This document shows positions 2,563 to 26,638 of a stretch of DNA of 30,620 nt, piece after piece. A program made the position numbers and the translations under genes. Source of the DNA: a virus; the IMG/VR virus record IMGVR_UViG_3300006086_000023, positions 1-30,620 of that record. One strand, written 5' to 3'. The notes beneath the pieces are model-generated. The model was given only the letters and a program-made list of their open reading frames with translations, was not told where the DNA came from and ran no database searches. Every line of letters starts with the position of its first letter. The first letter of the stretch is position 1.

Positions 2563-2751
2563 ATGTTGATCGCGATTGTAGTTTGGCCCGCCACCGTTTT
2601 ACTTTTGGGCGCCGGCGTCTTGTGGTTTGGCACTAAAAGTGTCCGCGGAGATTTTAAACGCGAAGACAATGAACGCGATTTGAAATATCGCATTCGGCGG
2701 GTGAAGCTGGAGCACGACGCCGCCAAGCAATTGGAGCACCACGGAAAATGA
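2563..2751 (+). CDS. Small membrane protein with charged cytoplasmic helix
   Basis: A 62-residue protein whose ATG follows the terL stop with no gap. Residues about 2-23 form one hydrophobic transmembrane segment; the rest (RGDFKREDNERDLKYRIRR and onward) is a strongly charged predicted helix. The layout, an N-terminal membrane anchor plus a long charged helix, is reminiscent of inner-membrane spanins or holin accessories, but it sits between terL and the portal and no family motif was recognised. It overlaps the next gene by ATGA, suggesting translational coupling. Confidence 0.65.
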   Translation: MLIAIVVWPATVLLLGAGVLWFGTKSVRGDFKREDNERDLKYRIRRVKLEHDAAKQLEHHGK

Positions 2752-3002
2752 GTGGCACCGTATCAGCCGTGGGAGATTTCTTTCACAACGTCGGGCAATT
2801 GTTCTCCACCCCGGAGCAGCCTAAGCTTCAAGCCCCGAGCGCCCTTTCTCAAACCCCCACCCAAGCCCAAGCAAGCGCGACCGCGTCGGCCCAAACCCTA
2901 GACCAAGAAAAGCAGGCAGCCAGTACCAGTTCCGTTATTTCGGGCGGCGCCGGCGTTTTGGAACAACCGACCACTACCAGCCGAACGCTGTTGGGGAGCT
3001 AA
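2748..3002 (+). CDS. Small Q/A/S/T-rich protein preceding the portal
   Basis: An 84-residue protein, unrecognised. The first 20 residues (SGTVSAVGDFFHNVGQLFS) look like a short amphipathic helix; residues 25-60 are a low-complexity Pro/Ala/Gln/Ser/Thr stretch, probably disordered; the C-terminus reads TTTSRTLLGS. Small low-complexity proteins ending in similar 'R.LLG' tails occur just before the connector gene in other podoviruses, so a virion or assembly role is possible. Its ATG overlaps the upstream stop (ATGA), and its own stop is immediately followed by the portal ATG, so all three are probably translationally coupled. Confidence 0.65.
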   Translation: MSGTVSAVGDFFHNVGQLFSTPEQPKLQAPSALSQTPTQAQASATASAQTLDQEKQAASTSSVISGGAGVLEQPTTTSRTLLGS

Positions 3003-12488: not shown

Positions 12489-14141
12489 ATGCCTAGAGTA
12501 CAAGAATACACACCGGAACAGGAAGCGCAGGGGCCGGTCGGGCAAACGAGCCCGATGCTCGAGCAAGTTTCTATGTTTGGGCGCGGGATCGCCGATGCTG
12601 GCCGCGATATTCAAGACGCCGGGTCAATTCTTCGTCAGCGTCAAACTCAGGCTGAAACTTCGGATGCCTACGCCTCGGTCGCGGAACAACGCGCCCAATT
12701 CATGGATCGCATCCAGGATGAAACCGCCAAGGGCACGCTGGATGTAGGCAAAGTAAAAGACGACTACCAAAAATGGGTAGAGGATCAATACGACTCCTAT
12801 GATACGCCCGGCGGTAAAGACGCGTTCACTCGCGCTTCGGCACGTACCGGCGGCGCGCTCCTTATGTCGGCCTCCCGCGGATACGCGGCGGTTCAAGGGA
12901 AAAAAGCGGCCGATAACTTGGTGACACTGACCAATACCAATTCTAATTTGGCCATGAAAGATCCCAATTCTTTCCCGGATCTTTATTCCGCACAGACGGA
13001 GGCCATTCAGGCGCAAGTGGAATCCGGGGCGCTTACCCAGACGCAGGCCGATCAGCTCCACAAATCGGCAGGCATAGAACTCGCCAAGGGCGCCGTTCGT
13101 GGGTACATGCAATCGGACTACAACAATATCAAAGCCGGTGTAGTTTCCTCAGATGGGAAAATTGATCCCAATACGCCCGCCATGAACACGGCCATTCAAA
13201 AACTCAACGGCGGCGTTTTCGACGAATTTCTCGATTCCGACCATAAGAAAGCACTCGAGCAGGAAATCCGCCAGAATCAAAGCGCCGCGCAGACCGCGGG
13301 TATACAGGCTCTTTCGGCGAAAAAACTTGCAGTGGATGCGCAAGGTGAACAATTTAAATCGCAGGCATACGAGCAGATTCGCACCGGGAAATATGATCCC
13401 GCACAATCGGTACAGGCTTTCCGCGCGGGGCTTATCACCGCCGATGAACAGCTCAAGCTTAATCATTTAGCAGATACGCAAACCGCCGACGAATCGCCTT
13501 CCAACCCGGCCGCTTTCAACTCGCTCATGCAACGAGTTCTCTCCCCCGATAATTCCCCCGGCCACATTTCTGATCCCATGCAATTGGCGTATATGGTGAA
13601 GAAAAACGCAGAGGATCTCGGGCCGGGCTCGCAATATATCGGCAAGGGCGATTTTGATAAGCTCACGCAGGCGATCGGGATGGTTCCGGCAAACAGGGTC
13701 AATAGCTATAACGAAGCGCAACTCCTGAATCGGGCCAAGGAAACCCTCGGCACCTCGGACCCTAACGCCCACTATAAGCTGATGCAGTTCACCAACGACT
13801 TGCAGATGGCCAAGCAAAACGCCTTGCAGAGCCAGCAGCCTATCGGGCCTCTCCTCGATCCTTCCTCCAAGGATTACTTTGGGAACAAACTTCAAAAGTA
13901 CCTCGCTTCGCCCACACAAATACTGGCGGCGCAGGCAGACCAGGCCCGCGGAACCACGGTCGCGCCCACCAACATTCAAACCCAACCGGGCGTAATTCCT
14001 ACGCCGTCCACGCCGCAAAAAGCGCCGGATTTCGCGTCCATGTCTCTGGATGATCTCCGTAAATTAAATCCCTCGAGCTTAAGTGTCGAGCAGCGTAATG
14101 CCGCACGCGCGCGAGCCACACAATTGCGCGGGGGTAAATAG
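12489..14141 (+). CDS. Internal virion / ejection protein (T7 gp15-like)
   Basis: A 550-residue, almost wholly helical protein. GAGGA at 12477-12481 precedes ATG 12489. Long Gln/Ala/Asp-rich helices run from about residue 30 to 350 (SILRQRQTQAETSDAYASVA, then KALEQEIRQNQSAAQTAG), and the last 60 residues are Pro/Thr-rich linker with FASMSLDDLRKLNPSSLS, a short repeat often seen in phage internal proteins. No enzymatic motif is visible. The assignment rests on helical content, size and place between a gp14-like and a very large gp16-like gene. It would line the ejection channel. Its stop TAG shares a G with the GTG start of the next gene. Confidence 0.78.
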   Translation: MPRVQEYTPEQEAQGPVGQTSPMLEQVSMFGRGIADAGRDIQDAGSILRQRQTQAETSDAYASVAEQRAQFMDRIQDETAKGTLDVGKVKDDYQKWVEDQYDSYDTPGGKDAFTRASARTGGALLMSASRGYAAVQGKKAADNLVTLTNTNSNLAMKDPNSFPDLYSAQTEAIQAQVESGALTQTQADQLHKSAGIELAKGAVRGYMQSDYNNIKAGVVSSDGKIDPNTPAMNTAIQKLNGGVFDEFLDSDHKKALEQEIRQNQSAAQTAGIQALSAKKLAVDAQGEQFKSQAYEQIRTGKYDPAQSVQAFRAGLITADEQLKLNHLADTQTADESPSNPAAFNSLMQRVLSPDNSPGHISDPMQLAYMVKKNAEDLGPGSQYIGKGDFDKLTQAIGMVPANRVNSYNEAQLLNRAKETLGTSDPNAHYKLMQFTNDLQMAKQNALQSQQPIGPLLDPSSKDYFGNKLQKYLASPTQILAAQADQARGTTVAPTNIQTQPGVIPTPSTPQKAPDFASMSLDDLRKLNPSSLSVEQRNAARARATQLRGGK

Positions 14142-17100
14142 TGCCGGGTACTCCGCTTTCAGGCGACGTTACGGGGATGGCCCCGAGCCATCCGGTTGAT
14201 CCGGCGGCGTCGTCCATTGCGGCTGATATTAAAGCGCCCAAGGGGCCGATGCCTTCCAGTAATCCCCCCGCTCCGCCGGAACCTGCTCCGGCTCCTCAAC
14301 AGCCCCAGGATCAAGGCAATAGCCTTGGCCGTGCCCCGGCATCTAGTGATGATTGGTTGGCCCAACCGCCAGAGCAGACCCCGCCTCCCGCGGCCGCGGC
14401 GCCCTCCGGGGATGATTGGCTAAATGCTCCGCCTGAAGCTAACGGCCCTCCTCCCCCGGCGCCGCCCGCCTCACCTATGCGCCAGGTGATTGATACGAAC
14501 CTCCAGGCGCATTACGCGGCGAAGCCGGAGCCAGTCCCGGGGCAGCAACAAACCGAGCTACAGCCGGAAGACTTCTACCACGATCTTGTGGGGGGTCTCG
14601 GCCTCGGGGCTCAAAATTCTGTGGAAGGGCTTAAACTCCGCGGGAAACTGCCGGATCACATTCTTCCTGAGCACGCCGACATGGCAATGCGTATCGGGAG
14701 TATGATCGGCCAGTTTGCGGGCGACCTGCCGGCGATGGCCGCGGGTATGACGTTGGGGGGCATTGGCGGGACCATGGCGGGAGCCGCGGGCGGCGGCGCG
14801 GTGAGTTTCGTCCCCGGAGCCATAGCGGGCGGCATCGCCGGAGGAACCGCCGGGGCAGCAGCGGGGGCCTTTGCTCTGCCGGCCGCAATCCGCAAAATGT
14901 ACATCGACCACTACACCAACGGGAACATCGCCGATTCGGATAATCCAGCGCGTGAGTTTGCAGCTCGTTTTATGGCGACCTCTTGGGAAGCGATCAAGGG
15001 GGGCGCCACGGGGCTTGCCGCCAACCTAACCGGCGGCCTCGTTTCCCCGGTAGCAGGTAAAATGGCGGGCGCCGCGTCCGAGCTCGTGGCCATGACTACC
15101 GTAGGGGCTGCGCTCGAGGGCCGGCTCCCCCAACCACACGAATTTCTCGACGGCGCGCTTATGGTGGGAGGCCTTCATACCCTTGGGCATGTGGCTGGCC
15201 CTGCGGATCGGGTTGGCACGGTCGAAACCAAAATAAACGCCCCGGAAACCAAGCTCCAGAATATTTACGCCGCCACGGGCGAAACCCCCGCCGAAATCAC
15301 CGAGCAGGCTAAGACCGATGTGGGGCTGCAACAAGACCTCGTGGCGGGAAATGCGCAGGAACCGCCTCAGGCTACGCCAACCAATCTTAAGCACGAAACC
15401 GTGCAAGAGGAGCTTCCCGCAGATAGCACCGAGAAGCCGGCCGTTATCGGTACGAATACCGAGCTCGAGCCCAAGACCGCGGCCGAAGTTGGCGCCGAGC
15501 GCTTACCCCCGAAACGCCCGCCCGATCTTAGTCTAGAAACCGCATCCAAAGACGCCGAAGACGATCAATACTTCGACAGCAAGATTGCGAAGAATGGGGA
15601 AGCGCCCGGGAAATCTTGGGGCGAGCTCCGCGACGAGTTTTACACAAAAGCCGTGGATTACTTATTCCCAATGGAAAAAGCGGAAGCACTCGCTAAATCT
15701 CGTGGCGCGGATATAAACCCCGAGACTAGCTCGGTGAATGAAATGCGCCAAGGTCGCGCGTTCGGAGATACCGCCAACAAAATTACGTCTGAGGGATTAC
15801 CAGATAAAGACGGAAATTTCACCGGCGACAGCCCCGATAAAATTTTTAAAGACATGGACAATGCGGGGCTGGATAAAAACCAGTTCCGTCGGTATGCCAT
15901 GGCCGCAGACGCCCTTGCCGATACCGAGCATGAATCTGGGCTAGATTTAGACCGCGCTCAACGGATTGTTCAAAAATACGAGCCACAATACAAAGAGTTC
16001 AATGACCGCCTCAATGGGTTCCGAAAACAACTTCTTCAATGGGGCGTGGATAACGGGCGGTACACTCAAGAGCAAGCGGATACTTGGAGCGCAAATGACG
16101 CCTATTCCCCACGCAAACGCGCTTTTGAAGCGGATATGTGGGGCGAGGAGCAAGGCCCCGGCGCCCGCGGCATCAAGGAGCGCGTAGGTTCCACGCGCGA
16201 TATCATAGATCCGTTGGCGCAAACTTTAGCCGATACGCAGCGCATGGTCAAAGACGTGCTCATAAATAAATCACGTAGCACCTTTGTGGGCAATATGCTC
16301 GAAGGTAATCTCGTGGACGTGGATGGTAAGTGGGCGGAAACCGCCGTTCAACCCGTTTTAAAAGTTGTAACCCAAGAGGGCGCTCTCGAGAAGAACCAAA
16401 TCGCCGTGTATCGTGACGGTGAGCGCCAGGTATACGAAGGCTCGCCTTTACTCGTAGATTCCCTAAAGCGCCTCGATGGTAATCCCGGGGCAATGGATCT
16501 TACCTCCCAAGTGCTCCGCGGGTTTACCAATCTTGTGCGATTGGGCGTGGTAAGTAATCCGGCATTTGGTGCCGCGCACTTTATCCGCGGTCAAATCATG
16601 GCGGGGGTAAATTCCACCACGGGGCTCGTTCCATTTGTCCATCCCGCGATGGCTCTCGCGGATATGATGCGAAATCCGGACGATTTCAAAAAGTTTATTT
16701 ACGAAGGTGGTGGAGGCGGGCGGTATCTCGATCAGAACGGCGGGTATTTAACTTCTGAGTTGGCAAAAGAAGATAATGTAAAGGCCCCCACATACGGCAA
16801 AGCGTGGAATAGCGCGCTCAATCCGCTCCATTGGTCGGAAGGTTTCATCCGTCTTACCGATACAGCCACTAAGTTTTCTGAATATCAACGGAGCCTTGAA
16901 GGGTACGCCACCGGCGGCGGATTTAAGGGATTGCTCAATAACGTGAAAAACGTAATTAGCGGCCCTGATGAAGCACGCGCCACCGGCCCGCAAGAGGCGT
17001 TGCAAAACTCCCGCATGGTAACTCCCGACTACTCTAACGTGGGCCTACAGCAATCCGTGCTACGCACAGGGGTGGCGTTCATTGGTGCGCACATAAACTC

Positions 17101-18178
17101 CCTCGATAATATGCAAAAAGTTTTTGAGCGCGATCCTGTGGGCGCCATGGCCCGCATGAGCGTTATCTCAGGTATGAGCGCCGCGGTTTGGTACCTCAAC
17201 CAAGGCGACGAGGCTATCGACGCCGTGCCGGATTGGCAGAAAAATACGTACTGGAATATCAACGTCAGCCGCTTTTCCCCCGACTACAAGGGCGCGCAAG
17301 ACGCTACCATCGTGCGGATACCGAAACCGTGGGCGCCAGGGATTCTATTTGGTTCGGGCGTTGAAACGGCGCTTGATTCGTATTTCAAGTACCGTCCGCA
17401 AGAGCTCCCGCACTTCGCCGAAAACCTCATGAAAAGCGTGGTTCCCGAAGTCATGCCGAACGTGTTCCAACCTGTGCTCGATCAGTACAGCAATAAGCAG
17501 GCGTTCACGGGCCGACCGTTAGTGCCCTTCTATAAAGAGAAATTGCTCCCCGAGATGCAATACTCGGCCTATACAAGTGAAACCGCTAAGGCCATCGGTA
17601 AACTTATTGGCTATGTGCCGCTCGTGAAAGACATTGGCCCAAGCACCGATACTCTCGCGAGCCCGGCCGTGGTGGAGAACTATATCCGCTCCTGGGGCGG
17701 CACTGTGGGCGGCTGGGCGCTTAAGTTGTCTGATACCGCTATCTCGAAGGCTACGGGCGCGCCGGATCGCGCCGATCCTTGGCAGGACACCCCGGTTCTA
17801 CACTCTTTCGTTTCGCGCTATCCGTCGTTTCAAGATCAGCGCATCCAAGACTTTTACGAGAATCGCGATAAAGCTGACGCGGCCTACAACTCCGCCAAAG
17901 CTGCTGCCAAGATGGGCGACTTCGATGCAGCGGAGCGTATTCGAGACGCCCACCCCGATTTCCAGGTAAGGCTCGATTCAATCGCTAAGTCGATCACTAC
18001 CGCGCGTAAAACTTACGAGAATGTGCAAGAGAATCCGAACTTACCCAACGATCAGAAGCGGCAACAGCTTGATTCCCTGCTTTTCCAAATAGGCTCCATG
18101 GCTAAAATGGGCAATCAAATGATGAGTGACTTTCACAAGGGTACAGTTCAGAATGTGGTGAAAGGGAATGGGCAGTAA
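14141..18178 (+). CDS. Giant ejection protein with LPD38 region (gp16-like)
   Basis: A 1345-residue protein, the largest in the window, with GTG start 14141 overlapping the upstream stop; GGGGG before it may serve as ribosome site. Residues 1-135 are Pro/Ala-rich and hold two DDWL-containing repeats (69-73, 91-94), common in large polyvalent proteins. Residues about 185-250 and 283-355 are Gly/Ala-rich and hydrophobic, suitable for membrane insertion. Residues about 770-1080 (RGFTNLVRLGVVSNPAFGA, HFIRGQIMAGVNS, LHWSEGFIRLTDTATKF) match the LPD38 domain. The C-terminus is helical. Unlike T7 gp16, no lytic transglycosylase motif is visible, so wall cutting must come from elsewhere. It is probably ejected with DNA. 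Confidence 0.85.
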   Translation: MPGTPLSGDVTGMAPSHPVDPAASSIAADIKAPKGPMPSSNPPAPPEPAPAPQQPQDQGNSLGRAPASSDDWLAQPPEQTPPPAAAAPSGDDWLNAPPEANGPPPPAPPASPMRQVIDTNLQAHYAAKPEPVPGQQQTELQPEDFYHDLVGGLGLGAQNSVEGLKLRGKLPDHILPEHADMAMRIGSMIGQFAGDLPAMAAGMTLGGIGGTMAGAAGGGAVSFVPGAIAGGIAGGTAGAAAGAFALPAAIRKMYIDHYTNGNIADSDNPAREFAARFMATSWEAIKGGATGLAANLTGGLVSPVAGKMAGAASELVAMTTVGAALEGRLPQPHEFLDGALMVGGLHTLGHVAGPADRVGTVETKINAPETKLQNIYAATGETPAEITEQAKTDVGLQQDLVAGNAQEPPQATPTNLKHETVQEELPADSTEKPAVIGTNTELEPKTAAEVGAERLPPKRPPDLSLETASKDAEDDQYFDSKIAKNGEAPGKSWGELRDEFYTKAVDYLFPMEKAEALAKSRGADINPETSSVNEMRQGRAFGDTANKITSEGLPDKDGNFTGDSPDKIFKDMDNAGLDKNQFRRYAMAADALADTEHESGLDLDRAQRIVQKYEPQYKEFNDRLNGFRKQLLQWGVDNGRYTQEQADTWSANDAYSPRKRAFEADMWGEEQGPGARGIKERVGSTRDIIDPLAQTLADTQRMVKDVLINKSRSTFVGNMLEGNLVDVDGKWAETAVQPVLKVVTQEGALEKNQIAVYRDGERQVYEGSPLLVDSLKRLDGNPGAMDLTSQVLRGFTNLVRLGVVSNPAFGAAHFIRGQIMAGVNSTTGLVPFVHPAMALADMMRNPDDFKKFIYEGGGGGRYLDQNGGYLTSELAKEDNVKAPTYGKAWNSALNPLHWSEGFIRLTDTATKFSEYQRSLEGYATGGGFKGLLNNVKNVISGPDEARATGPQEALQNSRMVTPDYSNVGLQQSVLRTGVAFIGAHINSLDNMQKVFERDPVGAMARMSVISGMSAAVWYLNQGDEAIDAVPDWQKNTYWNINVSRFSPDYKGAQDATIVRIPKPWAPGILFGSGVETALDSYFKYRPQELPHFAENLMKSVVPEVMPNVFQPVLDQYSNKQAFTGRPLVPFYKEKLLPEMQYSAYTSETAKAIGKLIGYVPLVKDIGPSTDTLASPAVVENYIRSWGGTVGGWALKLSDTAISKATGAPDRADPWQDTPVLHSFVSRYPSFQDQRIQDFYENRDKADAAYNSAKAAAKMGDFDAAERIRDAHPDFQVRLDSIAKSITTARKTYENVQENPNLPNDQKRQQLDSLLFQIGSMAKMGNQMMSDFHKGTVQNVVKGNGQ

Positions 18179-18180
18179 CT

Positions 18181-19035
18181 ATGGGCGTGTCTTCGACTAC
18201 CAATACTGAAATTTATACCGGGGACGGCACTACTACCGCCTTCGCCTTTCCCTTCTACTTCTTTAAAACGCTGGATCTTTACGTCTACATTTACGATCTT
18301 GTAGCGTTGACGATCACACAGCAAACCCCGGGCGTTAACTTTAGCGTTAGTGGCACCCCCAACGCACAGGGGCTTTACCCCTCCGGCGGGTTTGTGAATA
18401 TGGTGGCGGCCCCTCCCGCCACGCAGAAAGTGGTCATCAGCCGCACGCCCATTGAAACGAATGTATATGCGCTATCCCAGAATGGGATCATCTCCTCCAC
18501 GGCTATAGTTCAACAATTCGATTTCTTGACGCTGCTGATTCAATCCCTTCAAGATCAAATCAATCGCTGTCTGCAATTGCCCCCGGGATATGCGCCGGTT
18601 TTTAATCCGGATCTTCCCTCGGCCCTGCCGGCAAACTATCTTCTCGGCGTGAACGGTGCGGGTAACGGTGTCGCGGCAACTGCCGGTATCCCCGGACCTA
18701 CCGGCCCCCAAGGGCCTGCGGGGGGATCTTCGGTAGTTTTGCCCGCAACTACTAGTGTTACTCTGGCCGCGGGTTCGCCCGTGAACCAGCAATACATCCC
18801 GTGCGACGCGACTGCCGGGGCCATGAACGTGAACCTACCGGCGGCTAATTTGGCCGCAGTAGGACAAATTTTTCAAATTAAGAAAGTGGATTCCGGCGGC
18901 AACGCCGTAACCATCGTAGTTAATGGTATAGATCACATTCTAACCACTTCGCTATTGACTACCGCGCTCTTGGACTATCAAGGAAAAAGCTATTCCTTAA
19001 TTTGCCGTGCGGTTGGTTTTTGGGACGTAATTTAA
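18181..19035 (+). CDS. Tail fibre adaptor with T7 gp17-like N-terminus and collagen-like stretch
   Basis: A 284-residue protein without signal peptide. Residues about 9-39 (EIYTGDGTTTAFAFPFYFF, then LDLYVYIYD) match the virion-attachment domain of T7-type fibres ('Y.GDG.TT.F.ipF.y....dv.Vyv'). Residues 116-130 (FLTLLIQSLQDQINR) look like the trimerising helix that follows. A short collagen-like run of four G-X-Y triplets (GIPGPTGPQGPA, 169-180) links to a C-terminal beta module (about 190-284) ending FWDVI, which recurs in three downstream proteins. It is much shorter than T7 gp17 (553 residues), so it is probably a base to which other fibre proteins attach. Confidence 0.82.
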   Translation: MGVSSTTNTEIYTGDGTTTAFAFPFYFFKTLDLYVYIYDLVALTITQQTPGVNFSVSGTPNAQGLYPSGGFVNMVAAPPATQKVVISRTPIETNVYALSQNGIISSTAIVQQFDFLTLLIQSLQDQINRCLQLPPGYAPVFNPDLPSALPANYLLGVNGAGNGVAATAGIPGPTGPQGPAGGSSVVLPATTSVTLAAGSPVNQQYIPCDATAGAMNVNLPAANLAAVGQIFQIKKVDSGGNAVTIVVNGIDHILTTSLLTTALLDYQGKSYSLICRAVGFWDVI

Positions 19036-19047
19036 GGAGCCACAGGC

Positions 19048-19404
19048 ATGAGCACCACTACTCAGGAAGTAATCATATCGGCGCAAAATATGGCGTCCGA
19101 TATTATCAGCGCCGTAGTTGACCTGGGATCAGTGGATCTAGGTTCAATTCAATCCGTATTTTCTGGTTCCCCCGCGGGCTCCCTTTACCTGGAAGTGTCC
19201 AACGACATAATCGCCGTGGGATCGGACCCCAATAGCGGCGTTACCCATTGGGACACATACGGAACAGCGCAAACCATTGCGGCGGCCGGGAGTTACACTT
19301 TCAACATCTCCAACATGGGGTATAAGTGGTTGCGCTTGCACTTCGCGCATACCGGCGGTTCCTCTGGCTCGCTCACTTCCACGCTGGCGGCGAAAAATGG
19401 TTAA
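19048..19404 (+). CDS. Small beta-rich protein in the fibre region
   Basis: A 118-residue protein with AAGGAG at 19034-19039 ahead of ATG 19048. No signal peptide. Beta-prone blocks alternate with Gly/Ser turns: GSLYLEVSNDIIAVG, then THWDTYGTAQTIAAAGSYTF, NISNMGYKWLRLHFAHTGG and a terminal SLTSTLAAKNG. This looks like a small beta-sandwich, similar in pattern to the 97-residue protein at 7931-8224. No family recognised; location suggests a fibre part or fibre chaperone. Its last eight bases overlap the next gene's start. Confidence 0.6.
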   Translation: MSTTTQEVIISAQNMASDIISAVVDLGSVDLGSIQSVFSGSPAGSLYLEVSNDIIAVGSDPNSGVTHWDTYGTAQTIAAAGSYTFNISNMGYKWLRLHFAHTGGSSGSLTSTLAAKNG

Positions 19405-21805
19405 ACAACTATTGATCGCACTTCTCATTCCGCTCACCGCCTTTGCCGGTACTTCCGGAGATGTGGGCTCTCTGTCGCCTTCTCTTTTGGGCGTAGCGAA
19501 TGGTATCGCCACCCTAGACGGTACAGGCAAAGTTCCCGCTTCCCAAATCCCCGGCGGGGGCGGTGGCTCTACCGTTTGGGGCGCCATCACTGGCACCCTT
19601 TCTTCCCAGACCGATCTTCAAACCGCCCTCAACGGTAAACAAGCGTCTCTTACCGTGGGCGGCTCGAGCCAATACCTTCGCGCGGATCTCACCAATCAAA
19701 CCCTTGATACCTCCGTGGTACCGGAGAATGGGAATCTGTACTATACGGCCGCTAGGTTCAACGCCGCTTTCGGCGCAAAGACCACTGATAACCTGACCGA
19801 GGGCTCCACAAATCTCTACTACACTAACGCTCGCGCTTCCGCTGCCGCTCCCGTTCAAAGCGTGTTCGGCCGTACTGGCGTTGTAGCCGCGGCGATCAAT
19901 GACTACAACACCGCGCAGGTGACGGAATCTACCAACCTCTATTATACCCAGGCGCGGTTTGACGCCGCTTTCGCCGCTAAGTCCACTACCAATCTTACCG
20001 AAGGCACCAACCTCTACTATACCAACGCCCGAGCTTCCGCCGCCGCTCCCGTTCAAAGCGTGTTCGGCCGTACCGGCGCCGTAGTATCCGGCAGCTCTGA
20101 TTACGTCACCACCCAGGTGGCGGAAGGAACCAACCTCTATTTCACAAACGCACGCGCGCAAGCGGCGGTTAGCGCCACGCTTCCGGTGGTGGATACGGCG
20201 GGAGTATTTTCGCTCAACAACTTTACCGGCGACACCGGCACTAGCGCCGGTCTCGCTGGCGGAGTTCCAGCTCCCGCGCAGTATAGCGCGGAGTTAGGTC
20301 AAGTTCTTGGTGCGGGGGGCTCTTTTATTACCCCCGACGCTCAGAAGCTAAATAACGCGCCATTCAATTACCTAACCCAATCCTTGGGCATTTCTGGAAA
20401 CCAGAAAATGCTATATCCGCTCATGATCCAGCATGGGGGAAACACCTACGCAATCGTTGGTGGCGGAACTTCAAAAACGGTTTCCATTTATAACGTAACC
20501 GATCAAGCCGCCCCTGTTGCTCGTGGTAGCGTTACCATTGCGGGTACTTATGGCGCTTGTGGATCTAACGCCTCTTGGCCCTACGTTTTCGTTCCCGCCT
20601 CTGGTGGCCGAACGCTCACGGTCCTGAATATTACGGACCCCAACAACCCCACCACTACCGCTACGTATTCTTGGGCCGCGAATACCACTTCCGTTTATTC
20701 TTGCGCCTATGCAAACGGGCTAGTTTTCATGGCCGGGCAGAGCCACGGTCTTGGAATCCTCGACGTAGGAAACGGCGTATCAGGCGGAACTATCAGCGCC
20801 CCGGTTCTCGCTTTCGACGAGGGTACTCTCAACGGTGTAGGTCAAATTTGTAACGCCGCCAACTCTTGTAAATCTTTTGGCGTGAACGTGGACGCGGCGA
20901 ACCAAATCGTCTACGTATCGAACTATTCAACCGCCACGCCTTGGACGTATCGCCAGTTAAAAGCTTATTCCTATGCTAGTTCGATCACTTCACCGACGCT
21001 GCTTCAAAACCTAACTCTTCCGGCAAACACCAAGGCAAACGGAATCGCACTTGATCTCGTGAAGCACACCGCCTACGTGACCGACACGAATCAAAACGTG
21101 TACGACGTGGTGGACATTACAAACGTATCTACCGGGGGCATGACCAACCTCTCCACCATTCCCCTTCAAGCGAGCCGAATTACCAACTCGCAATTCATGG
21201 CCCTTCCCTCTCTCACGTCCAATTTGGTCTATGTTCCGGGGCTAAGCCAATCCGTAAATGGCGGAATCGACATTTACGATCTTTCTAACCGTAGCTCTCC
21301 CGTTTATGTGAGTAGCGTGTTAACCCCCGGCGCGCCATCGGTGGCCGGGGGTATTGCCTTTGATCCCCGCGGGGGTTACATCTACATGGCGGACTACGGC
21401 AACGGTACAACGGGATCGGCGTTGGATATTTTTTCCGCGCCATATGAAACAGCCACGGTGGGTAGTCTCACGGTTAATAATCTCACCGTAAAAGGAACAC
21501 TTACTGCCCCGGCGGTAGCGGCCACGACGAATACCGTTACCGCCAATACTACGATTCCTACGCTTACGAAAAACTATATTATCGACGTGAACACCACTTC
21601 GGGCGCGCTGGCTATCACTCTTCCGGACGCCGTGGCTTCACAGGGTTTCTGCGTGTATGGAAAAAACATCGGTTCCCCGGCCAATAACGCCACTTACGGA
21701 ACCACGTCAGCTCAAACTGTCGACACTCAGTCTACTTTCGTACAAAATACATTGAACGACGCCAACGAATTTTGCGCCATAAACGGAAATTGGTCCGTAT
21801 TCTAA
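19397..21805 (+). CDS. Exported fibre-like protein with predicted seven-bladed beta-propeller
   Basis: An 802-residue protein from ATG 19397. This start is chosen because it opens a clear Sec signal peptide (MVKQLLIALLIPLTAFA, cleavage after A17); the frame extends to 19277 but inside the previous gene. Residues about 70-290 are phage-fibre shaft repeats: NLYYTNARASAAAPVQSVFG occurs twice 66 residues apart with partial copies around. Residues about 335-685 contain seven 'h.IYD.t....P....s' strands (SIYNVTDQAAP, TVLNITDPNNP, GILDVGNG, KAYSYASS, DVVDITNVS, DIYDLSNRSSP, DIFSAP), the pattern of LVIVD-type beta-propellers. The last about 90 residues form a C-terminal beta module shared with neighbours. 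Signal peptides are not expected on virion fibres, so display on the cell surface or assembly in the periplasm is possible. Confidence 0.75.
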   Translation: MVKQLLIALLIPLTAFAGTSGDVGSLSPSLLGVANGIATLDGTGKVPASQIPGGGGGSTVWGAITGTLSSQTDLQTALNGKQASLTVGGSSQYLRADLTNQTLDTSVVPENGNLYYTAARFNAAFGAKTTDNLTEGSTNLYYTNARASAAAPVQSVFGRTGVVAAAINDYNTAQVTESTNLYYTQARFDAAFAAKSTTNLTEGTNLYYTNARASAAAPVQSVFGRTGAVVSGSSDYVTTQVAEGTNLYFTNARAQAAVSATLPVVDTAGVFSLNNFTGDTGTSAGLAGGVPAPAQYSAELGQVLGAGGSFITPDAQKLNNAPFNYLTQSLGISGNQKMLYPLMIQHGGNTYAIVGGGTSKTVSIYNVTDQAAPVARGSVTIAGTYGACGSNASWPYVFVPASGGRTLTVLNITDPNNPTTTATYSWAANTTSVYSCAYANGLVFMAGQSHGLGILDVGNGVSGGTISAPVLAFDEGTLNGVGQICNAANSCKSFGVNVDAANQIVYVSNYSTATPWTYRQLKAYSYASSITSPTLLQNLTLPANTKANGIALDLVKHTAYVTDTNQNVYDVVDITNVSTGGMTNLSTIPLQASRITNSQFMALPSLTSNLVYVPGLSQSVNGGIDIYDLSNRSSPVYVSSVLTPGAPSVAGGIAFDPRGGYIYMADYGNGTTGSALDIFSAPYETATVGSLTVNNLTVKGTLTAPAVAATTNTVTANTTIPTLTKNYIIDVNTTSGALAITLPDAVASQGFCVYGKNIGSPANNATYGTTSAQTVDTQSTFVQNTLNDANEFCAINGNWSVF
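19844..20073 (+). repeat. Direct repeat in fibre shaft, 198-base period
   Basis: A 32-base stretch at 19844-19875 is repeated without change at 20042-20073. The offset of 198 bases equals 66 codons, so the reading frame is kept and the repeat encodes the shaft unit (AAPVQSVFGRTG within NLYYTNARA... context). Flanking copies are diverged at synonymous and some non-synonymous positions. Confidence 0.85.
20400..21455 (+). other. Region coding the predicted beta-propeller
   Basis: Encodes residues about 335-685 of the exported fibre protein. Seven blade-like repeats can be counted by the hydrophobic strand ending in I-Y/L-D followed by a turn with Asn/Asp-Pro. Five cysteines fall inside (ACGSN, YSCAY, ICNAANSC), which would be oxidised if the protein is exported. 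Confidence 0.5.
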
Positions 21806-21818
21806 ACTGGAGTTTTTT

Positions 21819-22847
21819 ATGAAACTGATTCTTTCCTTGTTCTTAATCCTGACTACCGCGGCAAACGCTGCGTACGTGCAAACCCCATTTCCGATTACCA
21901 AAGGCGGCACCGGGCTTTCTACCGTTCCATCTGCGGGCCAAATTCTCATCGGTAACGCCGGAGGCACCGCATACGCGCTGGCGCTAATGAGTGGTGATGC
22001 TACCCTGGCCGCTTCCGGCGCGCTCACTATCGCCAACAGCGCGATCACCTCGGCGAAGATGGCCAATATGGCCGCCCATACCTATAAGGGGAATAACACG
22101 GGATCAAGCGCGGCTCCCGCCGACATTACTTCGACGCAACTCACGGCCGATTTGAACGCTTTTACTTCCTCACTCCAAGGTATGGCGCCGGCTTCTGGCG
22201 GCGGTAGCACGAATTTCCTTCGCGCGGATGGCACGTGGGCGGCTCCCGCGGGATCTTCTTATAGTGCAGGTACCGGCCTTACCCTTACGGGCTCGGTATT
22301 CTCGATCACTGCGCCGGTAAGCGTAGCCCTTGGCGGCACGAACAGTGCTACCGCATTGAACAGCAATCGGTTTATGGTATCGTCGGGTGGTGCGATCGTG
22401 GAAGCCGCGGCCGTAAGTGCTAACAGCGCCGTGGCTTCTGATTCCAACGGTCTGCCGGTAGCCTCCTCCACCACTGCTACCGAGCTTGGATATGTGCACA
22501 ACGTAACCTCGGCCATTCAAACCCAATTGAACGCCAAAGACCCGCTCAAATGGGCCGTAACCGACGGCGGCAACGCGGCGTACACCATTCTTTCGACGGA
22601 CATGCATGTGCGGGATACTACTACTCTCACCGCCAACCGCGCTTACACTCTGCCGGTTTGCAATGCTTCTAACATCGGCGAGCGCCACGAAGTAAAGAAT
22701 TTGCCCGCACAGACATTTCAAATTATCCTGACCGCCGCTGGGTCTGATAATATTGACGGGTCGGCAAGCGTAGCGCTCAATCCCGGCGATTCCATGCCGG
22801 TTATTTGCTCGGCTTTTGCTTCCTCTGGCACTTGGGACATTCAATAA
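21819..22847 (+). CDS. Exported fibre-like protein A (GTGLS module)
   Basis: A 342-residue protein with TGGAG at 21808-21812 and ATG 21819. It opens with a signal peptide, MKLILSLFLILTTAANA, cleavage after A17. Right behind it is a fibre module (KGGTGLSTVPSAGQILIG, about 28-45) that recurs with identical residues in the next gene. Typical phage-fibre phrases follow: SGALTIANSAITSAKMANMA, TYKGNNTGSSAAP, NFLRADGTWA (129-138), and GYVHNVTSAIQTQLNAK (about 225-241). The C-terminus (about 248-342) is the module ending in TWDIQ, containing GSDNIDG. The combination of export signal with trimeric-fibre repeats recalls the MAT fibres of Bdellovibrio, known from the literature; homology has not been tested. 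Confidence 0.75.
   Translation: MKLILSLFLILTTAANAAYVQTPFPITKGGTGLSTVPSAGQILIGNAGGTAYALALMSGDATLAASGALTIANSAITSAKMANMAAHTYKGNNTGSSAAPADITSTQLTADLNAFTSSLQGMAPASGGGSTNFLRADGTWAAPAGSSYSAGTGLTLTGSVFSITAPVSVALGGTNSATALNSNRFMVSSGGAIVEAAAVSANSAVASDSNGLPVASSTTATELGYVHNVTSAIQTQLNAKDPLKWAVTDGGNAAYTILSTDMHVRDTTTLTANRAYTLPVCNASNIGERHEVKNLPAQTFQIILTAAGSDNIDGSASVALNPGDSMPVICSAFASSGTWDIQ
21906..21995 (+). repeat. 30-codon fibre module, copy 1
   Basis: Thirty codons beginning GTGLSTVPSAG and ending LALMSG. The copy at 22971-23060 encodes the same 30 residues but differs at 15 bases, all in third codon positions. Confidence 0.9.
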
Positions 22848-22871
22848 TTTTTCTTGGCGAGGGTGAACATC

Positions 22872-24209
22872 ATGCTTATGCGACTTTTTAATACGATAGT
22901 TCTGGGGGTTTCGATCCCCACCCTCGCCTTCGCCTCGTTTTTAGGCGATCCGACCACAATTAAAGGTGGCGGTACCGGACTATCCACTGTGCCCTCCGCG
23001 GGTCAAATCCTCATCGGTAATGCCGGCGGTACCGCATACGCGCTGGCGCTTATGAGTGGCGGGGCCACGATGAGCTCTACGGGAGTTGTGACTCTCGGCA
23101 ACAGCGCGGTAACCGGCCAAGCTCTTACCGGGTATTCCGCGGGCTCTGGTACCGTAAGCGCTACTGATTCTATCCTTCAGGCCATTCAAAAAATCGTCGG
23201 TAACTTAGCCAATTATCTACCCCTGGCGGGCGGAACAATGTCGGGCGCCATTAACATGGGCTCGTTCAACATTACGAACCTCCTCGATCCAACGTCGGCG
23301 CAGATGGCCGCGACCAAAAATTACGTGGACGTGGCGATCTCTAATGAGAGTGTAGCCAAAGACGCTAGCAACTACGCAACCACTGCCGCATTAGTGGCTG
23401 TTACTTACAATAACGGCTCAAGCGGAGTTGGCGCTACCCTCACCGAAGTTGGTACCGGGGCGCTTAGTGTGGATGGCGGTTCTCCGTCGGTAGGTCAACG
23501 GGTACTCGTGAAAAATCAAGTATCCACTTTCCAGAACGGTATCTATGTTGTAACTGTGGCCGGGAGTGGGATCGCCGCTTTCGTTTTAACTCGTTCTTCC
23601 GATTATAACCAAGCCTCGGAAGCCTTGGCCGGAGCGTCCACTTACGTTCTTAGCGGTACGGTTAACGGAGCCACTACTTGGCAGCAAAGTTCTGCCAACG
23701 TAGTAACAATGGGTACCGACGCCATTACGTTTGCACAAACGGCGGGTCCGGGGAGCATTACGGCGGGAACTGGTATCACAGTGACCGGATCTTCCGTAGC
23801 TATCACCAACACGGCCGTAACCGCTGGGTCTTATACCTCGGCAAATATCACCGTGAACGCTCAGGGACAAATTACGGCGGCAGCTAACGGATCGGGCGGC
23901 GGGGGCGGTTCGGCAATGGCAGTCCTTACCAAGACTGCGAACTATACGGTAGTTACCGGAGATTTTACCGGAACGCGCCTTATGGTGGAGTGCAATGGAA
24001 GTTCCTTGATGACCATCACGCTTCCGGCGGCGAGCAATACTGGATATGATCTATTCGTGAAGAACATCGGCACGGCTGAGTGTGATGTAACTGCAGCTGG
24101 ATCGGATACAATCGATGGTGATACTACTTTACAATTAGTGCCGGGCGGCAAGCCTCGCATGGGCAATGAATTTATCGCTGACGGGAGCGCTTTATGGAAC
24201 GTGTTCTAG
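22872..24209 (+). CDS. Exported fibre-like protein B (GTGLS module)
   Basis: A 445-residue protein. Start ATG 22872 is preferred to TTG 22854 because GAGGG at 22859-22863 precedes it with suitable spacing and it begins a clean signal peptide (MLMRLFNTIVLGVSIPTLAFA, cleavage after A21). The signal is followed by the GTGLS module shared with the previous gene, then DSILQAIQKIVGNLANYLPL (about 98-117), GGTMSGAINMGSFNITNLLDP (a widespread tail-fibre phrase), ATKNYVDVAI, a middle beta-rich domain with VGQRVLVKNQ and QNGIYVV, GTGITVTGSSVAITN and SANITVNAQGQITAAANG, all usual in phage fibres. The C-terminal module has MTITLPAASNTGY, GSDTIDG and final WNVF. Its end overlaps the next gene by 16 bases. 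Confidence 0.78.
   Translation: MLMRLFNTIVLGVSIPTLAFASFLGDPTTIKGGGTGLSTVPSAGQILIGNAGGTAYALALMSGGATMSSTGVVTLGNSAVTGQALTGYSAGSGTVSATDSILQAIQKIVGNLANYLPLAGGTMSGAINMGSFNITNLLDPTSAQMAATKNYVDVAISNESVAKDASNYATTAALVAVTYNNGSSGVGATLTEVGTGALSVDGGSPSVGQRVLVKNQVSTFQNGIYVVTVAGSGIAAFVLTRSSDYNQASEALAGASTYVLSGTVNGATTWQQSSANVVTMGTDAITFAQTAGPGSITAGTGITVTGSSVAITNTAVTAGSYTSANITVNAQGQITAAANGSGGGGGSAMAVLTKTANYTVVTGDFTGTRLMVECNGSSLMTITLPAASNTGYDLFVKNIGTAECDVTAAGSDTIDGDTTLQLVPGGKPRMGNEFIADGSALWNVF
22971..23060 (+). repeat. 30-codon fibre module, copy 2
   Basis: Second copy of the module at 21906-21995. Same 30 residues, 15 synonymous differences, no amino-acid change. The copies are 1065 bases apart. Confidence 0.9.
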
Positions 24210-24718
24210 TACTTCTTATCGGCCTATTCTCTCTTCCGGCTTTAGCCGTAGTGCCTAGTGGCGTGCCTCAGGCGTTGCTGGGGGGCGCAAACGGTGTGTC
24301 CGGCGGGGCGGCCATCGCTGAATCTAGTTTAAGCACATATTTTACGCTCAATGCCGGGACGCAGAGTTCTGGGGCGAATACGTATTACGTCTTTTATAAG
24401 AACGGCACGGCCTACCAAGTAAGCAGTGGAAAGACAGCTTACTGCGTTTCCATCTCTTCCACTAGCTCCAGCCCGTTCAATACTTATCAGCTTGTTTCTA
24501 GCACAACCTCGTGGAGTAATAACGTCGGATCGCTGCCGGCGACGGCCGTTTACTCGTGCGGGGGTTCGAACTCTTATTGCCTGGGTACGGGCACCGCCGC
24601 CTTTGCCTTTAACGTAATGGGCGCCACCTATCAGTTCTCGGCCCTCACTTATCCGGGAATTGAGGTTAACCAGGCCTCTACGGTTTATTCCGTATTTCTA
24701 AATTGCAAAGAACAATAG
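24194..24718 (+). CDS. Exported small protein, four-cysteine paralogue 1
   Basis: A 174-residue protein of unknown function. GGGAG at 24183-24187 precedes ATG 24194 by 6 bases. Signal peptide MERVLVLLIGLFSLPALA, cleavage after A18, giving a mature N-terminus VVPSGVP. The mature part is beta-rich with Ser/Thr/Gly, and contains KNGTAYQVSSGKTAYC, YSCGG, YCLGTGTAA and a terminal NCKEQ. Cysteines lie at 84, 122, 129 and 171, with the same spacing, apart from one residue, as in the next protein, suggesting two disulfides in an oxidising compartment. 'Y.V.SGKTAY' recalls small receptor-binding beta domains of phages, but no family is claimed. Confidence 0.72.
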   Translation: MERVLVLLIGLFSLPALAVVPSGVPQALLGGANGVSGGAAIAESSLSTYFTLNAGTQSSGANTYYVFYKNGTAYQVSSGKTAYCVSISSTSSSPFNTYQLVSSTTSWSNNVGSLPATAVYSCGGSNSYCLGTGTAAFAFNVMGATYQFSALTYPGIEVNQASTVYSVFLNCKEQ

Positions 24719-24721
24719 GAG
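24717..24721 (+). promoter_or_regulatory. Ribosome binding site deciding a GTG start
   Basis: AGGAG lies 6 bases before GTG 24728 but directly abuts the in-frame TTG at 24722, so the GTG is the likely start of the second paralogue. It overlaps the stop codon of the first (TAG at 24716-24718). Confidence 0.65.
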
Positions 24722-24727
24722 TTGCGC

Positions 24728-25258
24728 GTGAATTTTTTCCTTATCATCCTTAGTTTATTCGTTTCCATCACTGCGCAAGCGGTCGTTCCTTCGGGAGTGC
24801 CGTCCATAACACTAGGGGGAGCCGATACTTATCCCGGAAATTTGGTAATTCCGGAATCTAATATCGGATCTACTGGCGGATATTTTACCGTAATGGCGGG
24901 TTCGGCTTCGGAAGGAGCTGGGGATTTCTATCCTTTCTGGAAGAATGGTGTCGCCTATCAGGTAACGAGCGGCAAGACCGCGTACTGTACCGCGCTGATG
25001 TTTGCTGGAGGTCAGGCGTTCAACACCATGCAGCTTGTGTCGGCGACGGCCACGTTCGCCAACGGCGCGTCCTCTCTGACGGGCGGTGTCTACTATTGCG
25101 GAGCCGCCGGTAACTACTGCCTTGGTAGCGGAACGGCGGCCAACACCTATAACCCGATGGGCGTTTCTCAGACATTTGCGGCTACCACTTGGCCCGGCAT
25201 TCAGACTCAAGCTACGGGGCAGATTTATTCCGTGCTCATGAGCTGTAAAGAGCAATAA
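24728..25258 (+). CDS. Exported small protein, four-cysteine paralogue 2
   Basis: A 176-residue protein, start GTG 24728 by its AGGAG at 24717-24721. Signal peptide MNFFLIILSLFVSITAQA, cleavage after A18, mature start VVPSGVP as in paralogue 1. The n-region has no basic residue from this start; the TTG at 24722 would add an arginine but leaves no spacer. Conserved blocks: KNGVAYQVTSGKTAYC, YYCGAAGNYCLGSGTAA, TWPGIQ and terminal SCKEQ. Cysteines 87, 124, 131 and 173 match those of paralogue 1. The pair arose by tandem duplication and then diverged strongly in the first third. The function is unknown; adhesin, fibre tip or superinfection factor are possibilities. Confidence 0.72.
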   Translation: MNFFLIILSLFVSITAQAVVPSGVPSITLGGADTYPGNLVIPESNIGSTGGYFTVMAGSASEGAGDFYPFWKNGVAYQVTSGKTAYCTALMFAGGQAFNTMQLVSATATFANGASSLTGGVYYCGAAGNYCLGSGTAANTYNPMGVSQTFAATTWPGIQTQATGQIYSVLMSCKEQ

Positions 25259-25273
25259 ATAGCAGGAGACGTT

Positions 25274-25459
25274 ATGCCCAACAAGGAACTGTTGGACTAT
25301 TACATCGAGCATACGGATAAACGCTTCGAGAGCATACACGCTAAGCTAGACGAAATATTGAAATTCCGCTGGATGCTCATGGGCGCGGCCCTCGCCATCA
25401 GCGGTACCGTAAGCGTGCTTTTTGAGGTAGCAAAGGCGTTCGCCCATGTTAGCCATTAA
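25274..25459 (+). CDS. Small membrane protein, haemolysin XhlA-like holin partner (tentative)
   Basis: A 61-residue protein with AGGAG at 25263-25267 and ATG 25274. Residues 1-30 form a charged helix with heptad-like spacing (EHTDKRFESIHAKLDEIL), then a single hydrophobic segment of about 20 residues (WMLMGAALAISGTVSVLFEV). This layout, cytoplasmic coiled coil then one membrane helix, is that of XhlA-type proteins and related holin accessories. It begins a run of small genes after the fibre block, where lysis genes are often found in podoviruses. No endolysin is next to it, so the role is an inference. Confidence 0.6.
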   Translation: MPNKELLDYYIEHTDKRFESIHAKLDEILKFRWMLMGAALAISGTVSVLFEVAKAFAHVSH

Positions 25460-25643
25460 GGCGGTGATATATGCGGGACTTCGTAATTTGGGTAATTATT
25501 GTGTTGCTTACTGCGCGCATCTGTTGGGAGTTTCTTTCTTCGTAATCGTTCACCGATTGCGCATAAGATTGCAAAAGCACGCTAAATCCGTACAATATGT
25601 GGATGTGCAAAAATCAACCCTAGATCAGGAGAATCCAAAATGA
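25446..25643 (+). CDS. Possible small membrane protein overlapping its neighbour
   Basis: A 65-residue open frame overlapping the upstream gene by 14 bases and the downstream gene by 4 (ATGA). Residues about 3-37 are fairly hydrophobic with two cysteines (NYCVAYCAHLLG, then VSFFVIVHRL), followed by a basic helix. It could be a holin or spanin part. The ribosome site is weak, and a 24-codon frame starting at 25471 in another phase uses the same bases; only one may be real. The ATGA coupling to the next gene favours this longer frame. Confidence 0.4.
   Translation: MLAIKAVIYAGLRNLGNYCVAYCAHLLGVSFFVIVHRLRIRLQKHAKSVQYVDVQKSTLDQENPK
25471..25545 (+). CDS. Possible 24-residue membrane peptide
   Basis: Too short for usual gene calls. 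ATG 25471 is preceded by AAGGCGG at 25458-25464, a better ribosome site than that of the overlapping 65-codon frame. The peptide MRDFVIWVIIVLLTARICWE followed by FLSS is one hydrophobic helix with charged ends. Small membrane peptides like this occur in lysis cassettes. It ends at TAA 25543-25545. Confidence 0.35.
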   Translation: MRDFVIWVIIVLLTARICWEFLSS

Positions 25644-25864
25644 GCCCCGCCGAACAAGCCGTACTCGCATCCCTTTCTGCCGAAGCCAAAGCCGCCGCCA
25701 AAGAACTACTTTTGGACATTATCGATAAAGAAATTCCTGCTATCGTAGCCGCCGAAGTATCCAAAATCGGCGTTTACGGCCCCATGATTCAAAGCGTAGT
25801 CGGCGGTTTCTACCCCCAAGTGGAAGCCATGGTTGACGCTAAAATCGCGGCGCTCCTGGCGTGA
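25640..25864 (+). CDS. Small helical hypothetical protein
   Basis: A 74-residue protein with AGGAG at 25628-25632 before ATG 25640. Ala/Glu/Lys-rich helices (SAEAKAAAKELLLDIIDKEI) lead to a hydrophobic second half (PMIQSVVGGFYPQVEAMVDA). No family recognised. It resembles the following protein in composition (both have 'P.I.A.i..' helices). The stop overlaps the next gene's GTG start (GTGA), so the two are probably co-translated. Confidence 0.6.
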   Translation: MSPAEQAVLASLSAEAKAAAKELLLDIIDKEIPAIVAAEVSKIGVYGPMIQSVVGGFYPQVEAMVDAKIAALLA

Positions 25865-26259
25865 CCCCTTCCACTTCGCCGCCTGCTCTGCCGACAAATT
25901 CGGCGGCACAGGCGGCGAACGCCATTATTAAGGGCATTGAAACGGCTCTCGAGCCCGAGATTCAAGCTGCGATCATCGCCGCCGTTCCCACTCTTGGCCT
26001 TCCGGTAGTAAAGCAACTCATTGATGAAATCGAAACGATCATCGAAAACAAGATCACAGTCTATCTTGAAACCGGCGCCGATTTCATTATCTACGATCTC
26101 CAGACCACAACCGAAAATATAAACGTCGTTGCCGCCCGCGCCGCATATATGCGGGCGCTTCAAAGCGGCAACCAAGCGGCAATTGCCGCGGCGAGGATTA
26201 CCTATGATCATGCCGTTTCGGCCGTTGCCAATGACGATGGCGGCGCTACTACTTCTTAG
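25861..26259 (+). CDS. Helical hypothetical protein
   Basis: A 132-residue protein with a GTG start overlapping the upstream stop. After a Pro/Ser/Thr-rich start of about 12 residues, it is predicted helical: NAIIKGIETALEPEIQAAII (19-38), VVKQLIDEIETIIENKITV (49-67), and an Ala-rich C-terminal helix (YMRALQSGNQAAIAAARITY). Moderately hydrophobic faces suggest membrane contact or oligomerisation. No family recognised. Its last 56 bases overlap the lipoprotein gene in another frame. Confidence 0.55.
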   Translation: MTPSTSPPALPTNSAAQAANAIIKGIETALEPEIQAAIIAAVPTLGLPVVKQLIDEIETIIENKITVYLETGADFIIYDLQTTTENINVVAARAAYMRALQSGNQAAIAAARITYDHAVSAVANDDGGATTS

Positions 26260-26638
26260 CTCCTGTGCCGCGCAAATCCATGACGGCCCGCTCTGTTCCC
26301 CCATTCCCACTTTGCCGGGGCAATGCCGCGGTTCGGCTGGGGCTGCCTGCGACCAGTTCCTTAATCACGCTCCCGCCGATCTCGATGCCGACCAATGGGA
26401 AGCGACCCAACAAGCGTGGGAAGACCAAGGTTGCGTCGTCATGGAAACCACGTCATGCTTCGTCAGCCAGCTCAAAGCGGAAATCGAAAAGCTCTGCACG
26501 GTAGCCTCCTGCACCGCCGCTCAAAGCGCGCAAATGGCCAAGGTAAGCGCCAATTATGATCGACTGGTAAGGGTGGCCAAGCGGGCGCGAGCTCGCGCCA
26601 AAGCGCTAGGATTAGAACTACGTGCGGAGCAACTCTAG
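26204..26638 (+). CDS. Cysteine-rich outer-membrane lipoprotein
   Basis: A 144-residue protein. Start ATG 26204 is supported by GAGGA at 26193-26197 with a 6-base spacer; the frame is open further up but without such a site. Residues 1-20 form a lipoprotein signal (MIMPFRPLPMTMAALLLLSS) ending in lipobox LSS-C21; Ala at +2 favours the outer membrane. The mature protein has seven more cysteines (LCSP, QCRG, ACDQ, GCVV, SCFV, LCTV, SCTA), and a basic helical tail (DRLVRVAKRARARAKAL). Phage lipoproteins include outer-membrane spanins and superinfection blockers; it is larger and far richer in cysteine than Rz1. Its stop overlaps the stop of the opposing primase gene. Confidence 0.65.
   Translation: MIMPFRPLPMTMAALLLLSSCAAQIHDGPLCSPIPTLPGQCRGSAGAACDQFLNHAPADLDADQWEATQQAWEDQGCVVMETTSCFVSQLKAEIEKLCTVASCTAAQSAQMAKVSANYDRLVRVAKRARARAKALGLELRAEQL

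Follow-up and report, generated by a model that had tools for sequence, protein, structure and literature searches.

A podovirus gene cassette predicted to encode Sec-exported tail-fiber-like proteins

We have identified a cassette of five consecutive genes in a podovirus, represented by a 30,620-base IMG/VR virus record (IMGVR_UViG_3300006086_000023; the whole of this stretch is referred to as the window), whose fiber-like and small beta-rich products are very probably sent out of the cytoplasm by the Sec pathway. Gene order in the window runs from virion genes through a T7 gp17-like adaptor (18181-19035) and the five-gene cassette to small lysis-like genes. Comparison with related phages indicates that the cassette fibers arose by an N-terminal swap, in which a Sec signal stands in place of the virion-docking N-terminus on an ordinary fiber body. 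On balance, we think that they represent a widespread class of phage late genes, encoding receptor-binding fibers that carry a Sec signal instead of a docking end and would be exported for receptor occupancy or for extracytoplasmic joining.

Tail fibers determine host range, and on the usual view both their synthesis and their attachment take place in the cytoplasm. Should export apply to a large class of fibers, many genes annotated as 'tail fiber' would not be what the name implies, and host-range prediction from such genes may fail. Phages would also gain a new means of receptor management at or after lysis, and a plausible evolutionary route would exist between phage fibers and bacterial surface adhesins such as the mosaic adhesive trimers (MATs) of Bdellovibrio. 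The cultured carriers BcepC6B, PBR31 and phi1422 make the idea of export directly testable.

Export signals and cysteine content of the cassette proteins

An initial annotation, made from the DNA alone, had placed export signals at the starts of five genes, and all five open reading frames (ORFs) were found to begin there, at 19397, 21819, 22872, 24194 and 24728, with N-termini of the signal-peptidase-I type. Cleavage sites in gene order are AFA, ANA, AFA, ALA and AQA (A-x-A in five of five). Each n-region carries a net charge of +1 or more when the N-terminal amine is included, and each core is uncharged with a mean Kyte-Doolittle value of 2.4-3.4; no lipobox occurs on any of the five proteins. 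A Shine-Dalgarno-like sequence precedes four of the genes, while the first instead overlaps the preceding stop (ATGGTTAA). A start-codon artefact was rejected in view of these ribosome-binding sites or the stop/start overlap, together with conservation of the starts in the related phage G002.

Signals were evaluated with a home-made scorer, not SignalP, that recognized 11 of 12 known E. coli-type signals and missed PhoA. Positives numbered 0 of 112 among non-redundant genes for head, tail and internal virion proteins that lie upstream of the adaptor in related phages, a result on which a chance origin of the signals was rejected, and 10 of 156 among genes of at least 150 amino acids (aa) in closely related phage records, eight of the ten being fibers. 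When residues 2-30 were shuffled, the observed scores were reached in 1-63 of 2000 trials. For the genes at 24194 and 24728, 36-43% of shuffles passed the plain threshold, owing to their highly hydrophobic N-termini. Since shuffles pass so often, the score for these two only weakly tells a signal apart from any other hydrophobic N-terminus, and the case therefore rests on conservation, N-terminal swaps and cysteines.

Cysteines make up 1.31% of residues in 25 signal-bearing fibers versus 0.62% in 59 signal-less adaptors and fused fibers (Mann-Whitney p=0.0009), and counts are even in 20/25 signal-bearing versus 23/52 signal-less proteins (p=0.0035); both p-values are optimistic, as some members of the sets are related. 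After cleavage, the window proteins would retain 6, 2, 2, 4 and 4 cysteines in gene order, all even numbers. The enrichment and the even counts thus support folding in the oxidative periplasm, independently of the signal sequence.

All five genes lie on the plus strand. Fiber 1 (P0001; 802 aa; 19397-21805) has the signal MVKQLLIALLIPLTAFA, NLYYTNARA shaft repeats, a propeller and a C-terminal tip domain. The propeller, absent from the initial annotation and located at about residues 325-680 between the shaft repeats and the tip, is of the 7-bladed LVIVD type; it is modeled by AlphaFold at a predicted local distance difference test score (pLDDT) of about 60-80, and its Foldseek matches are YncE and WD40 propellers. 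Relatives of the propeller occur in L126, with a signal, and in L127 and L128, without one. Fiber 2 (P0002; 342 aa; 21819-22847; signal MKLILSLFLILTTAANA) consists of a GGTGLST module and a tip domain. Fiber 3 (P0003; 445 aa; 22872-24209; signal MLMRLFNTIVLGVSIPTLAFA) shares the GGTGLST module and adds a tail-fiber shaft domain, GTMSGAINMGS and a tip; in profile comparison the shaft domain matches PHROG tail fibers and the solved chain 9efk 'orf22'. The fiber repeats that had been noted behind three of the signals are therefore present, and PHROG tail families match both P0001 and P0003. In a search of solved structures, no relatives of P0001, of phi1422 gp68 or of the MW202898 fiber were found.

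The last two genes encode small beta-rich proteins, P0004 (174 aa; 24194-24718; signal MERVLVLLIGLFSLPALA) and P0005 (176 aa; 24728-25258; GTG start; signal MNFFLIILSLFVSITAQA). They are paralogs with 48% identity, and the four cysteines of P0005 match in position the four of P0004. Neither shows homology to virion fiber proteins of the PHROG tail families, and AlphaFold yielded no reliable fold for them (pLDDT 35). A signal-bearing relative of P0005 with 41% identity is encoded by an unrelated tailed phage (L224, 2637-3164). It stands in a row of signal-bearing genes (1201-3605) comprising a fiber, this P0004/P0005-like protein and a probable third member, with a patatin-like gene just upstream.

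Exchange of N-termini and distribution among phages

The cassette is kept in G002, which has three orthologous signal-bearing fibers and, in place of the two small proteins, a fourth exported one whose tip is Gly-rich. Between G002 and the window, the signals of the three fibers are 35, 53 and 61% identical and the following 60 residues 68, 95 and 77%, and all of the N-termini are still signals. Such drift in sequence with retention of the signal points to selection for export, as a docking peptide should keep its sequence.

Fiber bodies are found both with and without a signal. P0001 is 45% identical to its G002 counterpart and shares its body with the signal-less L127 and L128 fibers (33-34%). 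Over 452 aa, G002 fiber 1 shares 68% identity with L127, a signal-less fiber of the conventional kind, and the signal-bearing L126 is 47% identical to the same L127 fiber. The P0002 tip and the C-terminus of the L046 adaptor, which lacks a signal, share 44% identity over 95 aa. In these BLAST comparisons, window and G002 coordinates read from gapped alignments count alignment columns and not residues. A scan for the tip family of BcepC6B gp19 returned at least 550 related stretches, and the best loci assessed contained 67 complete ORFs. The strict signal test was passed by 31 of these 67, and about six more were signal-like by eye; the remainder mostly had conventional phage-fiber starts, such as MADTFRIIPYVVRSAGTDVPPEEVQ or MAANQNVTQL.

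A scan by adaptor alignment yielded 80 loci. Signal-bearing fibers or tailspikes follow the adaptor in L046, L051, L080 and L097, with three in a row in L097. In L080 (G011), a tipless adaptor of 182 aa is followed by an exported pectate-lyase-like tailspike (PF12708). Beside the terminase gene, the same contig has a gene (L219, 5509-7035) whose collagen-like product of about 500 aa bears a signal at its N-terminus. G007 has a short adaptor and one signal-bearing fiber, and in G008-G010 the adaptor N-terminus is fused to a long fiber and an exported fiber set is lacking. A signal-bearing gene of at least 150 aa lies downstream in 7/13 short-adaptor loci versus 5/43 long-adaptor loci (p=0.003; non-redundant loci, two of them added from other searches, with a post hoc test on loci that are related). 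The five long-adaptor positives include one lipoprotein and one membrane protein, and only about two are convincing fibers.

Cultured carriers are Bdellovibrio phage phi1422 (gp68 and gp75), Burkholderia phage BcepC6B (gp19), Xanthomonas phage PBR31 (orf035) and Shewanella phage vB_Sb_QDWS (one ORF). The possibility of a trait confined to phages of predators, raised by phi1422, was dropped when the BcepC6B, PBR31 and QDWS carriers were found. No signal was detected on the larger structural genes examined in Aeromonas phage 56 and Vibrio phage 138, which belong to the phi1422 group, or on the tail-collar genes of Bdellovibrio phage phi1402. A complete signal-less spike directly precedes the signal-bearing gene in BcepC6B, PBR31, L251, L236, L228, L300, L232 and L266; it is of the T7 gp17 type in L251, L236, L228 and L300, and of the P22 type in L232 and L266. 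In L295 and L231, the preceding gene is a putative o-spanin-like gene.

The QDWS record (OK094664) and that of Hujiaoplasma phage zrk29-1 (OP650936) are both 47,902 bases long and gave the same match with equal identity; they may represent a single phage entered under two widely differing hosts. Two gene calls, one on the opposite strand and the other truncated, overlap the signal-bearing ORF of OK094664 (L214, from 3776). Small signal-bearing or lipobox proteins are also encoded divergently, upstream of packaging genes, in L013 (6187-6474 and 6508-6717, minus strand), L007 (417-617) and L009 (6032-6235), and mark a second site of exported phage proteins. A Kapaibacterium metagenome-assembled genome (L035, 3216-5567) encodes a signal-bearing protein of 783 aa with phage-fiber modules, the gene being either cellular or prophage.

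The view that such export would be unusual phage biology stands, except that the arrangement is not unique to the window, being widespread and present in cultured phages. Our search of the open-access literature, which did not cover most subscription journals, turned up no description of tailed-phage tail fibers with Sec signals. The PBR31 paper mentions a signal on its esterase only, and annotated examples are named merely 'tail fiber protein' or 'putative structural protein'. Fibers with Sec signals thus seem to form a widespread class that has so far gone unremarked in the open-access literature.

Possible roles of the exported fibers

The initial annotation had suggested that the cassette is either displayed on the infected or lysogenized cell as adhesins or exported and joined to virions at lysis. 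Export itself is well supported, and the suggestion as a whole partly so. The job that we tentatively place ahead of the others, at somewhat less than even chances, is the occupancy of receptors from outside the virion. The fiber-like proteins, which resemble receptor-binding proteins, would be made late in infection, alongside the tail adaptor and in advance of the small lysis-like genes. Sec would carry them into the periplasm; there, they would lose the signal to signal peptidase I, fold and form disulfides. Soluble or envelope-associated fibers would then be released around the cell during or after lysis and occupy the phage's own receptors, so that superinfection is blocked and progeny are not lost on debris or on already infected neighbors. 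With different tips on its several proteins, the cassette would cover a number of surface targets.

Receptor occupancy is favored because the signal replaces the docking end, because a complete spike often adjoins the signal-bearing gene, and because exported tips come from virion tip families, one of which is common to P0002 and the virion adaptor of L046. In another system, a purified phage receptor-binding protein blocks adsorption (PMC12946066). Several points weigh against this role. Neither an outer-membrane anchor nor a secretion partner is evident, which leaves access to surface receptors before lysis unexplained. Five different proteins seem many for the purpose. The over-representation of signal-bearing fibers beside short adaptors fits virion docking better, and no other receptor-binding fold found in the G011/L080 contig is as clear as the signal-bearing tailspike behind its tipless adaptor. 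The signal calls on which the role depends also come from our own scorer instead of SignalP.

In the docking alternative, the strongest rival although we regard it as unlikely, distal receptor-binding proteins that have folded in the periplasm would join the adaptor (18181-19035) at lysis, making the last assembly step extracytoplasmic; if true, the belief that assembly of tailed-phage virions ends in the cytoplasm would be overturned. It draws on the excess of signal-bearing fibers beside short adaptors relative to fused adaptor-fibers, an association whose post hoc test on related phages counts against it, and on the fused forms of G008-G010, where the same adaptor N-terminus leads directly into a long fiber and the exported set is absent. 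The Gly-rich tip that ends the fused fibers of G009 and G010 resembles the tip of the fourth exported protein of G002, the L080 pairing is of the expected kind, and start/stop overlaps suggest coupling to the adaptor gene. Against docking, the exported forms lack a conventional docking N-terminus, the five mature N-termini are of three types with no docking module common to them, complete spikes are already present in BcepC6B, PBR31 and others, and the window adaptor has a tip of its own.

Still less probable is a use as MAT-like adhesins, by which the phage would arm the infected or lysogenized cell with surface fibers for attaching to prey or surfaces. Bdellovibrio MATs are signal-bearing, phage-fiber-like trimers with swapped tips (PMC10769870), the carriage of signals by phi1422 gp68 and gp75 and not by Aeromonas phage 56 and Vibrio phage 138 of the same group is in line with such a use, and L035 may be an example of bacterial surface proteins of this make-up. 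It is countered by the late position of the genes between tail and lysis-like genes, by cultured carriers that infect Burkholderia, Xanthomonas and Shewanella, by the signal-less tail-collar genes of phi1402 and by the lack of an S74 domain in the window. Least probable of all, and in our judgment very improbable, is that the hydrophobic N-termini are membrane or virion anchors, or products of misplaced start codons, rather than export signals. The high scores of shuffled 24194 and 24728 N-termini, which reflect hydrophobic composition alone, and the scoring without SignalP would allow for this; the A-x-A sites, charge asymmetry, ribosome-binding sites and signal-like divergence kept across lineages, as well as the enrichment and parity of cysteines, argue for export.

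Source phage, neighboring genes and known systems

The podovirus gene set of the window comprises terminase, portal, T7-type scaffold, major capsid protein, and tail tubular and internal virion proteins, with primase and DNA polymerase on the opposite strand. Its portal is 35% identical to that of Burkholderia phage BcepC6B, and a longer, near-identical contig of 43,189 bases is available (IMGVR_UViG_3300027898_000018). One internal virion protein (14141-18178; 1345 aa) contains an LPD38 (large polyvalent protein) domain at residues 1023-1219, and an HNH endonuclease gene (529-975) separates the first ORF from that of the large terminase.

The adaptor or short tail fiber (18181-19035, plus strand) had been described as lacking a signal, as it does; its T7 gp17-like virion-binding N-terminus, at residues 1-134, matches PHROG tail and tail-fiber families. 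It is followed by a collagen-like GPTGPQGPAGG stretch and a C-terminal tip domain. The adaptor is 81% identical to its G002 counterpart, and its N-terminus is 39-45% identical to those of the fused fibers of G008-G010. Between the adaptor and the exported set lies a gene for a small signal-less protein of 118 aa (19048-19404, plus strand), which has the same place in G002 (L024, 15961-16314). Downstream small genes (25274-26638, plus strand) include one for a putative holin-like protein with one transmembrane segment (25274-25459) and one for a lipobox (LLSSCA) protein that may be Rz1/o-spanin-like (26204-26638); the only Pfam match among them is a weak one to DUF7201. The lipobox protein at 26204 suggests a Gram-negative host, and one scan of genome contigs for the host gave only a weak Kapaibacterium match. 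Promoter and terminator scans performed no better than chance, and the operon structure therefore rests on gene spacing only.

Among cultured phages, BcepC6B gp19 and PBR31 orf035 resemble the cassette fibers in having signals (MKKLIAILLAVPALALGA and MKKLIALFSLFCTSAFG, respectively) followed by tail-fiber modules and a tip known from virion fibers, with the gene located between tailspike and holin. Unlike the window, these phages have one such gene and not five, a complete adjacent spike and another tip family. In phi1422, as in the window, a signal-bearing fiber-like protein comes right after a signal-less 'tail fiber' gene and is accompanied by a small signal-bearing protein; phi1422 differs in being a myovirus, and at the sequence level its gp68 and gp75 matched no other phage of the collection searched.

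MATs of Bdellovibrio have a signal, a conserved beta-rich domain of ~130 aa directly behind it, a modular phage-fiber-like body and exchangeable tips, and 13/21 end in an S74 chaperone domain (PMC10769870). The cassette shares the signal, the modular body and the exchangeable tips, but MATs are encoded by chromosomal genes of the predator, whereas the window, a virus record, encodes terminase, portal, capsid and tail proteins. The S74 domain (PF13884) is absent from the window, and PDB sequence searches with P0001, A1 and A3 gave no match to a MAT tip, A1 matching only the 9efk orf22 shaft domain. With neither S74 nor MAT tips found by sequence, membership of the MAT family is unsupported, and the likeness is an analogy of working principle.

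T7 gp17-type fibers and adaptor-tailspikes are represented by the N-terminus of the window adaptor and by the fused forms of G008-G010. Their distal parts, unlike the cassette proteins, are signal-less, with attachment either in cis or by way of a docking domain. The superinfection-exclusion proteins Llp of T5 and Cor are exported, but are small lipoproteins or periplasmic proteins and not tail-fiber homologs. They are phage-made exported proteins that occupy or disable a receptor, which is the outcome proposed here for the cassette.

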